NCBI GenBank assembly: GCA_038993745.2
Contig: CP160629.1
Coordinates: 930,001-994,000, forward strand
Source: Aliivibrio fischeri
GTDB lineage: Bacteria > Pseudomonadota > Gammaproteobacteria > Enterobacterales > Vibrionaceae
DNA length: 64,000 bases
Direction: 5' to 3'
Made by a program: the position numbers and the translations under genes. Numbering within the stretch: the first letter of the stretch is position 1; each line of letters opens with the position of its first letter. Positions 2,682 through 39,465 of this stretch are shown here, in pieces. A model generated the notes under the pieces. It was not told the origin of the DNA, did no database searches, and saw nothing but the letters and a program-made list of their open reading frames with translations.

Positions 2682-5037
2682 TTGGATAAAACCACGAGTT
2701 TTAGCTCTGGTTTGGGCATTGGCTCTATTAGGAATCGCAGGGGTATTTGGTTATCAATGTACAACCAAAGGCGCACTGCCAATAGAAACCAATATCTTGG
2801 CGTTATTACCTGATAATCAACAAGATAAAGTTGCTCAGCAAGCGTTTGATAATATTGCTAATACCATGAGTGATAAAGTGGTGTTTGTAGTCAGCCAAAC
2901 CCAAGGTGACAGTAAAAAACTGATTGAAGCGGTTGATCAGTTTAATGAAGAACTGGTTGCGTTACCTATGTTTGACTCGGTAACGGCAACGATAAGTCCT
3001 GAGCAACAACAAGCGTGGGGGAAATTTTATTTTCCTGCTCGCGCTCAGTTACTGACAGCACAGCAAACCCAACAATTAGAACACGCACCAGAACAGCAAG
3101 TTCAAAAGGTATTACACGCACTATACAATCCTTTTTCAGGTGTGACGGGAGGGGAGTTAGAGAACGATCCTTTCTTGTTATTTCGAGATTATTTATCAGG
3201 TTTAACTCAAAGCTCTGGTAATGTTCAAGTAGAGAATGGCTATCTGATTGCCAAACACGATGATAAAGAATACGTCGTGATCACCGCTGATCTATCAGGA
3301 TCATCATACCAACTCTCTTTGCAGCAGCAATTACCTCAACTATTGTCACTTGAAAGCAAAGTATCAAAGACATTTTCGGTTGATATTCAACATACAGGTG
3401 TGATTTTTTATGCAGCCCATGGGACAGAAAGCGCCAAAGGGGAGATCAGCACAATCGGCCTTGGATCCCTTATCGGAATTATTGTCCTTGTCTTTTTAGT
3501 TTATCGCAGCACATTACCTTTGGCTCTAGCCTTACTGTCAATATCAACGGGTCTTGCTTGTGCCTATGTACTGACGATTGCTTTATTTGGTTCCATTCAT
3601 TTGTTTAGTTTGGTTTTTGGTGCCAGCTTAATTGGGGTTTCTATTGATTATGCATTTCACTTTTTAACCGACCGACTTCATGCGGGCAAAAAATGGAATT
3701 CAGTGGTGGGTATTCAGCAACTGTTTCCAGCCATTACCTTGGGGCTAATTACCAGTTTAATTGGTTATTTAGGGATGCTTATTGCGCCTTTCCCTGGGTT
3801 ACAGCAATTATCCTTATTTTCTGCCATTGGTTTAACAGCAGCCTATTTTACCGTGGTATGTTGGTATCCAGTATTGGCAAGTAAACCAAATCAATATAAC
3901 CAAGTACCGATGCAACGAGCCTTGAGTCAGTGGCTTTTGGTGTGGCAACAACCGCTTATTCGATTAGTTTTACCATTGAGCTTATTGATTGCTGCAAGTT
4001 TTGGCGTTTATATGGCGAAATATGATGATGATATTCGTCAACTTCAAGCTTTGCCACATGCACTGCAGCAGCAAGAGAGAGAGATAAAAGCGATTACCGG
4101 TGTCGGTGGCTCTCAGCAACTATTGCTTGTACGAGACAGTTCTGAAGAAGGGTTACTGCAAAAGTTAGAAACCATATCGACTAAACTGGATAAACGTAGT
4201 GATTTCGGTGGTTATCAATCCATAAGCCGTTATGTACCGTCACAAAAAAGACAACAAGAAAATTACCAATTAGTTAAACACCTGTATCAGCAACAATCTG
4301 AGTATTATCAAAGTGTCATACAGCCAAAAACAGCGCTGGATTTTTCACAGCAATATCAGCCTTTGACTATAGATGGTTTCTTAGCATCACCAATATCAGA
4401 CACGGTTGGTTTTTTATGGTTAGGTAAAATTGATGGTGTATTTGCCTCGGTGATCACGTTTAACCAAGAAGTGAACAGTACGGAATTGCAAGCATTTGCA
4501 GCGGATAATCACATTACTTATTTAAATAAAGCAGAAGAGATTTCTCGTTTATTTGCAGATTATCGACATCGTATTACTGAGCTATTGTTGTTTGCTTATG
4601 CCGCTATTTTCTTACTGCTGTTACCTCGCTATAAAATGAAACAAGCGTTTTTAATAGTATTGCCACCATTTATAGCAGGTTGCGCCGGCTTAGCTGTAAC
4701 CGTTTTAACTGGCGTACCGTTGAATTTGTTTAACTTACTAGCCTTGATGTTGATTTTAGGGATCGGAATAGACTACACCTTGTTTTTCGCAGAGCAGAAT
4801 AAGCAAAGTGATGATTCACATAAAGAAAGCACGCTATTAGCGATATCTTTATCTGCGTTAACAACGATTTTGTCATTTGGTTTATTGGCCTTGAGTGAAA
4901 CCCAAGCGATTCATAGCTTTGGTATTACGGTACTTACAGGGATTATCGTGGCTTGGTTACTGGCTCCGTTAAGCCAACAAAATAAAGAGAGTAAAGAGCA
5001 GATTAATACGCTTTCGGAGAAAAAAGATGCATCATAA
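2665..5037 (+). CDS. MMPL/RND-superfamily exporter of the aryl-polyene cluster
   Basis: A 790-residue membrane protein with a GTG start at 2665 inside the end of the LolA-like gene. It has one N-terminal transmembrane segment, a large periplasmic domain and a block of five helices (about residues 260-410), then a repeat of that arrangement, the two-fold layout of MMPL transporters. Charged signature stretches occur in both halves (GVSIDYAFHFLTDR and GIGIDYTLFFAEQ). With the LolA-like protein and the DUF3261 lipoprotein it probably moves the polyene from the inner membrane towards the outer membrane. It overlaps the lipoprotein gene by 11 bases. Confidence 0.88.
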   Translation: MFSNSNWIKPRVLALVWALALLGIAGVFGYQCTTKGALPIETNILALLPDNQQDKVAQQAFDNIANTMSDKVVFVVSQTQGDSKKLIEAVDQFNEELVALPMFDSVTATISPEQQQAWGKFYFPARAQLLTAQQTQQLEHAPEQQVQKVLHALYNPFSGVTGGELENDPFLLFRDYLSGLTQSSGNVQVENGYLIAKHDDKEYVVITADLSGSSYQLSLQQQLPQLLSLESKVSKTFSVDIQHTGVIFYAAHGTESAKGEISTIGLGSLIGIIVLVFLVYRSTLPLALALLSISTGLACAYVLTIALFGSIHLFSLVFGASLIGVSIDYAFHFLTDRLHAGKKWNSVVGIQQLFPAITLGLITSLIGYLGMLIAPFPGLQQLSLFSAIGLTAAYFTVVCWYPVLASKPNQYNQVPMQRALSQWLLVWQQPLIRLVLPLSLLIAASFGVYMAKYDDDIRQLQALPHALQQQEREIKAITGVGGSQQLLLVRDSSEEGLLQKLETISTKLDKRSDFGGYQSISRYVPSQKRQQENYQLVKHLYQQQSEYYQSVIQPKTALDFSQQYQPLTIDGFLASPISDTVGFLWLGKIDGVFASVITFNQEVNSTELQAFAADNHITYLNKAEEISRLFADYRHRITELLLFAYAAIFLLLLPRYKMKQAFLIVLPPFIAGCAGLAVTVLTGVPLNLFNLLALMLILGIGIDYTLFFAEQNKQSDDSHKESTLLAISLSALTTILSFGLLALSETQAIHSFGITVLTGIIVAWLLAPLSQQNKESKEQINTLSEKKDAS

Positions 5038-36561: not shown

Positions 36562-37710
36562 ATGAGTGATGTTATTAAGAATTTTTTCAAATTAGAATCT
36601 GCCGGTGGGATTCTGTTAGTGATCGCAGCTGCGATTGCTATGATGATTGCAAACTCTTCATTAGCACCAATGTACGATACATTTTTACATTCTTATATCG
36701 GTGGAATGTCAGTATCACATTGGATTAATGACGGCCTAATGGCTGTTTTCTTCCTATTGATCGGATTAGAAGTAAAAAGAGAATTATTAGAAGGTGCGTT
36801 AAAATCAAAAGAAACCGCTATCTTCCCTGCAATTGCAGCGGTAGGTGGTATGTTAGCGCCAGCTTTAGTTTACGTTGCATTTAATATGGGCGATCCTGAA
36901 GCTCTATCTGGTTGGGCTATTCCTGCGGCAACAGATATTGCGTTTGCATTAGGTATCATGGCGCTTCTTGGTAATCGAGTTCCTGTTAGCTTAAAAGTGT
37001 TCTTACTTGCTCTAGCTATTATTGATGATTTAGGCGTTGTTGTTATTATCGCTTTCTTCTACACAAGTGATCTATCTGTTCTTGCTCTTGTAATTGGTTT
37101 TGTAATGACAGGTTTACTGTTCTTACTGAATGCAAAACATGTAACAAAGATCCGCTGGTATTTATTGGTTGGTTTTATCCTGTGGGTGAGCGTACTGCAA
37201 TCAGGTGTTCACGCAACGTTAGCTGGTGTGGTTCTTGGTTTTGCTATCCCTCTTAAAGGCAATAAAGGTGAGCGTTCACCACTAAAACACATGGAACATG
37301 CATTACACCCTTATGTTGCGTTTGCTATCCTTCCTGTGTTCGCTTTTGCTAATGCTGGTATCTCACTAGAAGGTGTGTCACTTGATAGTTTGACGACAAC
37401 ATTACCTCTAGGTGTTGCTTTAGGTCTGTTCCTTGGTAAGCCTCTAGGTATCTTCAGCTTTAGTTACCTTGCTGTTAAGTCTGGTGTAGCAAAACTACCA
37501 ACAGGCGTAAACATGAAGCATATTTTTGCTGTATCAGTGCTGTGTGGTATCGGCTTTACTATGTCCATCTTTATCTCATCACTGGCATTTGGTGGTGTGA
37601 ACCCAGAGTTTGATAAACTGGCTCGCTTAGGTATCTTGATGGGCTCGACATTTGCAGCGGTTGTTGGCTATGCGTTGTTAAGCATCTCATTACCAAAGAA
37701 AGCAGCATAA
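36562..37710 (+). CDS. nhaA: Na+/H+ antiporter NhaA
   Basis: A 382-residue antiporter with 12 predicted helices. The ion-binding acidic residues are in [16 protein letters not shown] and in [13 protein letters not shown], which corresponds to the Asp163/Asp164 pair of E. coli NhaA. It exports sodium in exchange for protons and is important in a marine bacterium. It has a clear ribosome site (AAGGA) and its own terminator. It is separated from the ABC operon by 164 bases. Confidence 0.95.
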
Positions 37711-37737: not shown

Positions 37738-37768
37738 AAATACCTCGCAAATAGCGGGGTATTTTTTT
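37738..37768 (+). terminator. nhaA terminator
   Basis: Stem AAATACCTCGC/GCGGGGTATTT with one wobble pair, then seven T. Confidence 0.85.
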
Positions 37769-37772
37769 GGAC

Positions 37773-37893
37773 AAAAAAAAGCCCAAACAATAAATTGAAT
37801 GGGCAAAAGGAATATAAGGAATTATGAAAAAGCTATAGTTGATAAGATAAAACTTGGCGGCCTGCTAAATTTTAGAATTCATCATCAACGGGT
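37773..37893 (-). ncRNA. Candidate sigma-E-dependent sRNA, VrrA-like (copy A)
   Basis: A minus-strand transcription unit of about 120 bases with no open frame. The terminator at 37773-37804 has stem GCCCA/TGGGC-type arms and eight U. Upstream, GAACTA (37921-37926) and TCTGA (37900-37904) are spaced by exactly 16 bases, as in sigma-E promoters. The start is placed near 37893. It shares TTCATAATTCC and GCTTTTTC with copy B. Size and promoter fit the Vibrio sRNA VrrA, which represses outer-membrane proteins, but the name is an inference. Confidence 0.55.
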
Positions 37894-37899
37894 ATAAAA

Positions 37900-37926
37900 T
37901 CAGACTAGCGATCTTTCTCTTAGTTC
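37900..37926 (-). promoter_or_regulatory. Sigma-E-like promoter of sRNA copy A
   Basis: Minus-strand elements TTGAACTA and GTCTGA, with 16 bases between GAACTA and TCTGA. The layout is identical to that of the neighbouring sRNA at 38086-38112. Confidence 0.5.
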
Positions 37927-37991
37927 AATAAATATTCGATTTTTTTTAAATTATTTTTTGGGTGCTTATCTGTAAGAAATAGTGGTCCAGA

Positions 37992-38079
37992 TAAAGAAAA
38001 ACCCGTTACCTATAATGCTAAAATTAGCGAGATAACGGGCTTCTTGAATATATCAAGAAAAAGCAGTGGAATTATGAAC
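37992..38079 (-). ncRNA. Candidate sigma-E-dependent sRNA with RybB/MicV-like seed (copy B)
   Basis: A minus-strand unit of about 85 bases. It contains CCACTGCTTTTTCTTGAT near its 5' end, nearly the same as the RybB seed region CCACTGCTTTTCTTTGAT. A strong terminator (CCCGTTA/TAACGGG, U-run) ends at 37992. A sigma-E-like promoter lies just upstream. RybB is about 80 bases and in E. coli lies next to ybjL and grxA, which are also close here, with fabV in between. It probably represses outer-membrane protein mRNAs under envelope stress. Confidence 0.7.
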
Positions 38080-38085
38080 ATAAAT

Positions 38086-38112
38086 TCAGACTGCCGCTTT
38101 TTCCAATAGTTC
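38086..38112 (-). promoter_or_regulatory. Sigma-E-like promoter of sRNA copy B
   Basis: Minus-strand GAACTA (38107-38112), 16 bases, TCTGA (38086-38090). The probable start is 6-8 bases downstream, near 38079. Confidence 0.55.
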
Positions 38113-38262: not shown

Positions 38263-39465
38263 ATGATCATCAAACCTAGAATTCGTGGATTCATTTGTAC
38301 AACCACTCACCCTGTTGGTTGTGAGCAAAACGTAAAAGAGCAAATCGCATTAACTAAAGCTCAAGGCCCAATTGCTAACGCACCAAAACGTGTATTAGTT
38401 GTTGGTTCTTCAAGTGGCTACGGTCTATCTTCTCGTATTACAGCTGCTTTTGGTGGTGGTGCATCAACCATCGGCGTATTTTTTGAAAAAGCGGGTACAG
38501 AGAAAAAACCAGGTACAGCTGGTTGGTATAACTCTGCGGCTTTTGACAAATTTGCAAAAGAAGAAGGTTTATACTCTAAAAGTTTAAATGGCGATGCTTT
38601 CTCTAATGAAGCAAAACAAAAAACGATTGATCTAATTAAAGAAGATTTAGGTCAAATCGATATGGTTGTTTACTCATTAGCATCACCTGTACGTAAAATG
38701 CCTGAAACAGGTGAAGTGATCCGTTCTTCACTGAAACCTATCGGCGAAACTTACACAGCAACAGCGGTAGATACAAACAAAGATGCAATCATTGAAGCAT
38801 CAGTTGAGCCTGCAACAGAACAAGAGATCAAAGATACTGTTACTGTAATGGGTGGCGAAGACTGGGAACTGTGGATTAACGCATTATCAGAAGCTGGCGT
38901 TCTAGCTGATGGTTGTAAAACCGTTGCATATAGCTACATCGGTACTGAGCTAACATGGCCAATCTACTGGGATGGTGCTCTAGGTCAAGCTAAGATGGAT
39001 TTAGATCGTGCAGCAACAGCGCTAAACGAGAAACTATCTGCGACAGGTGGTACAGCAAACGTAGCAGTACTAAAATCTGTAGTAACACAAGCAAGTTCTG
39101 CAATTCCTGTTATGCCACTGTACATCGCAATGGTATTCAAGAAAATGCGTGAAGAAGGCGTACACGAAGGTTGCCAAGAGCAAATTCTACGTATGTTTAG
39201 TCAACGTCTATATAAAGCAGATGGTTCAGCTGCAGAAGTTGATGAGAAAAACCGTCTACGTTTAGATGACTGGGAACTTCGTGAAGATATTCAACAACAC
39301 TGTCGTGATCTATGGCCTCAAGTAACTACTGAGAACCTAAAAGATCTAACTGACTATGTTGAGTACAAAGAAGAGTTCTTAAAACTATTTGGCTTTGGTG
39401 TTGATGGTGTTGATTACGACGCTGATGTTAACCCTGAAGTAAACTTTGATGTTGCTGATATCTAA
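38263..39465 (+). CDS. fabV: Enoyl-ACP/trans-2-enoyl-CoA reductase FabV
   Basis: A 400-residue protein starting [20 protein letters not shown] at 38263, behind GGAAAG; a TTG two codons earlier is unlikely. The NADH-binding fold is at residues 43-60 ([18 protein letters not shown]). The catalytic Tyr235-x8-Lys244 pair is in [10 protein letters not shown]. FabV performs the last reduction of fatty-acid elongation and is the triclosan-resistant enoyl reductase first found in V. cholerae. It is a single gene with its own terminator. Confidence 0.95.

Follow-up and report, generated by a model that had tools for sequence, protein, structure and literature searches.

Two candidate sigma-E-driven small RNAs of the RybB/MicV and VrrA types in the nhaA-fabV gap of Aliivibrio fischeri

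What occupies the 552 bases that separate nhaA (36562..37710, plus strand) from fabV (38263..39465, plus strand, with its ATG at 38263) in A. fischeri, and does it correspond to one duplicated gene or to two genes of distinct families? In the original prediction, two sRNA genes had been placed here in tandem on the minus strand of a 64,000-nucleotide stretch of DNA (hereafter, the window), and their existence is supported by sequence, folds and conservation. No open reading frame of at least 60 aa was found within the gap in the ORF list. Relative to the sRNA units, nhaA is the convergent neighbour and fabV the divergent one, and the FabV protein of the window was 100% identical to A. fischeri FabV (L003). 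It was also observed that positions 37739-37773 likely hold the nhaA terminator, on the plus strand, which stops a few bases from the minus-strand end of the second unit, so that the two transcripts would converge.

The two sigma-E-type promoters

Each unit is preceded by the GAACTA-N16-TCTGA arrangement, found at the predicted positions. The promoter of unit 1 spans 38086..38112 on the minus strand, with GAACTA at 38112-38107, a spacer of 16 bases and TCTGA at 38090-38086, and that of unit 2 spans 37900..37926 on the same strand, with the same three elements. The sigma-E consensus used for evaluating the -35 and -10 elements agrees with that in the VrrA loci compared, and both the correct spacing and the conservation of these elements support their assignment to the sigma-E type. 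When the window was searched for GAACT-N17-TCTGA, exactly two sites were recovered, both in the nhaA-fabV gap, whereas in 100 dinucleotide shuffles the mean was 0.14 sites and the maximum one; the promoter pair is beyond chance. Counterparts of both promoters were present in 14/14 Aliivibrio loci, with variants restricted to GAGCTT in G069 for unit 1 and to TCATA or TCTCA in G053, G039 and G069 for unit 2.

Because matches to sigma-E promoters are short, they could still be fortuitous, and the RNAs would then be independent of sigma-E, being either constitutive or produced by read-through. This explanation is highly improbable, considering that both matches of the window fall at these units, that their counterparts are kept throughout the Aliivibrio set and also at the psrA loci of other genera, and that V. 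cholerae VrrA was reported to need sigma-E (PMC2628432). An intact rpoE ORF is present in the genome, hfq is attributed to V. fischeri (PMC6299092), and the candidate RNAs carry a U-tail, as in Hfq-dependent sRNAs. By analogy with RybB and VrrA, both units would be transcribed under sigma-E dependence, would make use of Hfq and would act as repressors, and their induction by envelope stress is a prediction.

Kinship of the two units

Unit 1 would produce an RNA of 87 nt (37993..38079, minus strand), whose +1 was deduced from promoter spacing and placed 7 bases past TCTGA, where Rfam VrrA matches start in the majority of the compared Vibrio loci. This RNA comprises, on the minus strand, a 5′ extension, GUUCAUAAUU (38070..38079), a RybB-type seed, CCACUGCUUUUUCUU (38055..38069), and a terminator hairpin followed by a U-run (37993..38040), in whose stem compensatory changes were found: in an alignment of 17 RybB-type units, six of the 11 terminator pairs were changed on both sides. 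When folded as 87 nt, unit 1 was more stable than 200/200 shuffled sequences (z -5.27). It matched the Rfam RybB model (RF00110) with 42.6 bits, above the gathering threshold of 40, and across the 14 Aliivibrio genomes, five passed this cut-off, five were just under it and four had no listed match.

In RybB, the RNA begins with the seed. The predicted +1 of unit 1, itself deduced from the promoter, lies 10 nt before CCACUGC, since UUCAUAAUU is inserted in Aliivibrio between the first G and this motif. The extension was found in 14/14 Aliivibrio genomes, being altered only in G069, in which the seed is changed as well, and its 9 nt were absent from the 73 RybB-type units of other genera. Among the latter, 72 present (G/A)CCACU(G/A)CUUUU at the predicted +1 or close to it, and the remaining one, in G003, presents UACACUGC. 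Unit 1 resembles RybB (RF00110, enterobacteria) and MicV of V. cholerae (in part after PMC7602753) in the seed (C)CACUGCUUUUUCUU, the two-hairpin layout, the terminator, the sigma-E-type promoter and the predicted porin targets. It differs from them in that the seed is displaced from the predicted 5′ end in Aliivibrio by a 9-nt extension that is predicted to pair with a porin start codon, in its tandem placement with VrrA, and in the existence of a separate MicV-like gene.

Unit 2 would correspond to an RNA of 121 nt (37773..37893, minus strand), with its +1 placed by the same promoter spacing. Its family was examined with R2, a covariance model built from 17 VrrA sequences (13 from g12, which is the code for the genus Vibrio, one from g9 and three from g3) and none from Aliivibrio. 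This model matched unit 2 with 47.9 bits (E 1.7e-7 in 471 kb), the next match reaching 20.4 bits; as R2 contains only four pairs, this match reflects mainly sequence homology. In the Rfam VrrA model (RF01456), unit 2 scored 20 bits, below the gathering threshold of 50. The covariance search anticipated for this locus was thus successful for unit 1 with Rfam RybB and for unit 2 with R2, but not with Rfam VrrA, and the proposed kinship with VrrA, MicV and RybB held, unit 1 being of RybB type and unit 2 of VrrA type. Rfam VrrA matches were also obtained at L160, L161 and L162, from three Aliivibrio genomes (E about 2e-4 to 4e-4), and were discarded as false positives, since they were coding-sequence 3′ ends followed by a terminator, read as pyrC-like, and lacked a sigma-E promoter within the stretch printed.

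The general plan of VrrA is recognised in unit 2, with a 5′ hairpin, the loop C(A/U)GGCCG(U/C)CA, an internal GCUUUUUC and a GCCCA terminator, besides the sigma-E-type promoter. On the minus strand, the conserved loop GGCCGCC lies at 37856..37862, the single-stranded seed region, GCUUUUUCAUAAUUCC, at 37818..37833, and the terminator hairpin GCCCA..UGGGC followed by U8, as seen in the fold, at 37773..37804. The GGCCGCC loop is invariant in 14/14 Aliivibrio rows, and GGCCGTC(A/G)AA was found in 25 of the 30 g12 VrrA loci. When folded as 122 nt, unit 2 was more stable than 200/200 shuffles (z -3.31), and one of its 23 pairs was changed on both sides within Aliivibrio. Compared with V. cholerae VrrA, unit 2 is shorter (121 versus 140 nt) and its seed continues with AUAAUUCC instead of UUAUUAACUCC. 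Concerning the expectation of units of 85-120 bases ending in a strong terminator, the lengths agree with the 87 and 121 nt predicted here and a hairpin with a U-run is seen in the folds of both, but a terminator scan limited to loops of 3-8 bases reported none, so that the evidence for both terminators comes from the folds and from conservation.

The original prediction had also considered the two units as duplicated, diverged copies of one gene. They share the promoter type, GCTTTTTC, and an exact TTCATAATTCC, which has four copies genome-wide, two of them here, and a common word of at least 11 nt between the two RNAs arose in only 5 of 2000 mononucleotide shuffles. Furthermore, VrrA units match R1, the model built for unit 1, weakly, with 21.5 bits for unit 2; in the 30 g12 VrrA loci, the R1 matches are mainly VrrA itself and the rest are weak, at most 16.7 bits. 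Despite these similarities, a recent tandem duplication of a single sRNA followed by divergence is very unlikely. The order of TTCATAATTCC relative to GCTTTTTC is swapped between the units; the 5′ hairpin and the GGCCG(U/C)CA loop belong to unit 2 and are missing from unit 1; and the grouping of unit 1 with RybB/MicV and of unit 2 with VrrA is largely established by Rfam RybB and R2. Moreover, other genera also have adjacent RybB-type and VrrA-type units, which do not share the 11-mer. The shared TTCATAATTCC was not seen in the printed counterparts of other genera and thus seems particular to this lineage, not left over from a duplication. The word UUCAUAAUUCC also occurs within the Aliivibrio VrrA seed, in another order. 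The two units are better regarded as members of two families, for which a very old common origin is possible.

Tandem sibling sRNAs are known from PrrF1/2 and OmrA/B, as described in PMC4211561, and the units reported here resemble them in being adjacent and related. Unlike those pairs, they belong to two sRNA types whose seed is shared in part, and up to five units are found in g8. Among the titles and abstract starts listed from a partial literature library, none described an Aliivibrio RybB/VrrA pair or a multi-unit VrrA array. These are known sRNA families in a new arrangement and with a new seed, and a light-organ symbiont lineage thereby gains a RybB-type sRNA and a VrrA that had gone unrecognised.

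The MicV-like sRNA at argH and the predicted porin target

R1 matched 132 of 150 genomes at E 0.05 or better; since it includes Aliivibrio rows, its score for unit 1 is given by construction. In each of the 14 Aliivibrio genomes, a second R1 match was found elsewhere, and the four of these that were fetched adjoin argH/argG and have their own sigma-E-like promoter. The same position and promoter type were observed in G008 and in 7/7 fetched g12 loci, argH/argG being named by NCBIfam in L208 and by blastp clustering in the remaining ones. In the genome of the window itself, L208 carries at 3512-3576 (minus strand) a MicV-like sRNA at argH, with a sigma-E-like promoter and 39.4 bits in R1. This argH copy is presumably the published MicV. 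Another R1 match, of 30 bits at L376, was rejected, being the terminator of a gene and having no sigma-E site.

It could be argued that unit 1 is the MicV orthologue itself, relocated, and not an additional gene, as both have the same seed and size class and the seven fetched core Vibrio loci carry a RybB-type unit at argH. However, the presence of a further match in every Aliivibrio genome, with argH placing and promoter as in those core Vibrio loci, makes this relocation extremely improbable, and unit 1 is taken here as an additional gene.

RybB represses porin mRNAs by base pairing. Across 39 starts of outer-membrane protein families and 49 genes of the window, the best partners of unit 1 were a pair of neighbouring Porin_4 genes (at about 1.119-1.122 Mb of G000:C1), with predicted duplexes of -32.1 and -31.3 kcal/mol, each of 25 bp (17 + 8 bp) and covering the ribosome site and the AUG of both genes. 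By comparison, the 49 genes of the window gave a mean of -11.3 and a minimum of -15.8 kcal/mol with unit 1. A screen of outer-membrane protein families, in which 43 loci were reduced to 39 starts after merging duplicates and leaving out L238 and L249, without a called start, yielded two more starts reaching -21.0 and -16.8, bearing in mind that the 39 include proteins other than membrane porins and that starts were picked with a simple scoring of SD sites. When the leaders were lengthened, the minimum among window genes became -19.7 and the porins still ranked first (z -7.9 and -7.6). The pair also occupied ranks 1 and 2 in a 347-gene genome sample, followed by -21.0, in a sample formed by one stretch selected for the porin pair and five adjacent stretches that were hoped to hold rpoE, and whose mean includes the porins.

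The extension contributes to this fit, which dropped to -24.7 when it was removed; both observed energies were reached by 7/5000 shuffled extensions and by 12/5000 random ones of 38% GC. The complementarity holds across the genus: AAGAAAAGGCAGTGGA and ATTATGAA are retained in 16/16 porin starts, recovered from 11 of the 14 Aliivibrio genomes, with energies from -30.4 to -34.5 kcal/mol, and 14 of these 16 leaders are distinct. As one genus was compared and other parts of the leaders are also alike, the kept porin site is partly explained by shared descent; in the flank before it, 5 of 60 ungapped columns were conserved, a figure that offers no fair contrast since the leaders differ by indels. 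No such porin was found at E 1e-8 in G010, G039 and G069; unit 1 is changed in G069 and without changes in the other two. The argH sRNA pairs with the same porin site (-29.5 and -25.7), so that unit 1 may be redundant. Two other genome copies of exact GGAATTATGAA were considered as targets and rejected for not being porin starts, one lying inside a frame read as argE-like and the other before a 6-codon frame, and GGRRTTATGAA variants led to no envelope gene.

Regarding unit 2, the target screen revealed no partner clear of background: its best seed partners (z about -3) include genes read as lipoproteins and as a FadL-like protein, no duplex with ompA or ompT, whose repression is a VrrA trait, stood out, and no pairing partner above background was found for the GGCCGCC loop. 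The leaders of two other porins of this genome (L228 and L229) contain GGCGACC and GGCGGCC, and the pairing of the VrrA loop with the leader of L229, as well as of L228, was not above background.

We hold with good confidence that the two units are sigma-E-driven trans-acting sRNAs, one of RybB/MicV type and the other a divergent VrrA, that together represent the Aliivibrio form of an ancestral psrA-side cluster. In the mechanism proposed, envelope damage would free sigma-E, which would transcribe unit 1, unit 2 and the argH copy. The 5′ end of unit 1, formed by UUCAUAAUU and CCACUGCUUUUUCUU, would then base-pair across the ribosome-binding site and start codon of both adjacent Porin_4 genes, blocking ribosome entry on both mRNAs and preventing their translation. 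Unit 1 would act as an additional copy beside the MicV-like sRNA at argH, and the single-stranded seed of unit 2 would serve to target other envelope mRNAs. Sigma-E-driven repression of porin translation is the likely function, and marine bacteria probably rely on the sRNA cluster to shut down outer-membrane pores when the envelope is stressed. The mechanism can be tested directly through the two-part duplex of 25 bp predicted at both porin starts.

The psrA-side cluster across Vibrionaceae

Both units were present in 14/14 Aliivibrio genomes, the whole genus set compared. At E 1e-30, psrA was found in 127 of 150 Vibrionaceae genomes and in none of the 14 from Aliivibrio. Outside this genus, the sRNA pair lies upstream of psrA, a TetR gene taken to be vc1741, which neighbours V. 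cholerae vrrA according to PMC2628432; unit 2, in turn, has nhaA and fabV as neighbours. A regular-expression search up to 1.5 kb upstream of fabV found such a promoter pair in 0 of 71 named loci outside Aliivibrio, where L056 gave one looser match and L049 offered only about 200 bases. In G003, fabV, fadE, psrA and a RybB-type unit are located on one 10-kb contig, which links the fabV and psrA neighbourhoods, and loss of the genes between them would explain the position found in Aliivibrio. In G008 (g9), fabV is about 3.4 kb from the sRNA pair, if the contig is that of Vibrio sp. Of7-15. A pattern of TCTGA-N4-30-TGCTTTTTCT was abandoned for being too loose, with matches in 125/150 genomes, many of them unrelated.

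The 127 psrA regions were classified by regular expression, which misses some units, such as the RybB-type ones of G005 and g10. Both types were recognised in 14/14 g3, 1/1 g9, 1/1 g13 and 1/2 g6 genomes, RybB-type alone in 2/2 g7 and 1/1 g4, and VrrA-type alone in 46/50 g12, 1/2 g6, 1/1 g5 and 2/8 g10. Neither type was recognised in 6/8 g10 and in 4/50 g12, although three of these four g12 genomes have an Rfam VrrA match. Among the 47 genomes of g8, which we guess to be Photobacterium, 37 carry one RybB-type and zero to four VrrA-type units, nine carry one to three VrrA-type units only and one carries neither, with several of these regions being only 0.5-1.6 kb long. A looser expression recovered a RybB-type unit in 73/127 psrA regions, including 45/47 g8, 8/8 g10 and 0/50 g12.

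From these sequence comparisons, we infer that a RybB-type unit and VrrA beside psrA would constitute an old pairing in Vibrionaceae. The simplest reading is that of an old psrA-side cluster from which psrA would have been lost in Aliivibrio and the RybB-type unit in core Vibrio, and whose units would have multiplied in g8. A broader proposal, to which we give an even chance, is that Vibrionaceae hold at psrA an evolvable cassette of sigma-E sRNAs in which the number of units (one to five) and the seed vary by lineage. According to this proposal, the RybB-type member of Aliivibrio would have gained its 9-nt 5′ extension and become a near-complete antisense of two porin start regions, and gene conversion, or selection for a target common to both RNAs, would have brought the same 11-nt word into the adjacent VrrA. 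The data suggest that the array of sigma-E sRNAs at the vrrA locus varies across Vibrionaceae, and its natural copy-number and seed variants bear on why several stress sRNAs with one seed are kept.

The maximum of one RybB-type plus four VrrA-type units was reached in three of the 47 g8 genomes, and in L301, L310 and L317 these five sigma-E-like units are seen in a row. In the three longest g8 arrays, the 5′ hairpins of the VrrA-type units differ, and the seed CCACUGCUGCU(U/A)AACUCCUAAUUGU is common to them with few changes. Within the same genus code, VrrA-type units were observed about 2.2 kb from psrA in L305 (G118), L307, L309, L311 and L313, and a unit reading CCACUACUUUUU was located near psrA in G118 and G116.
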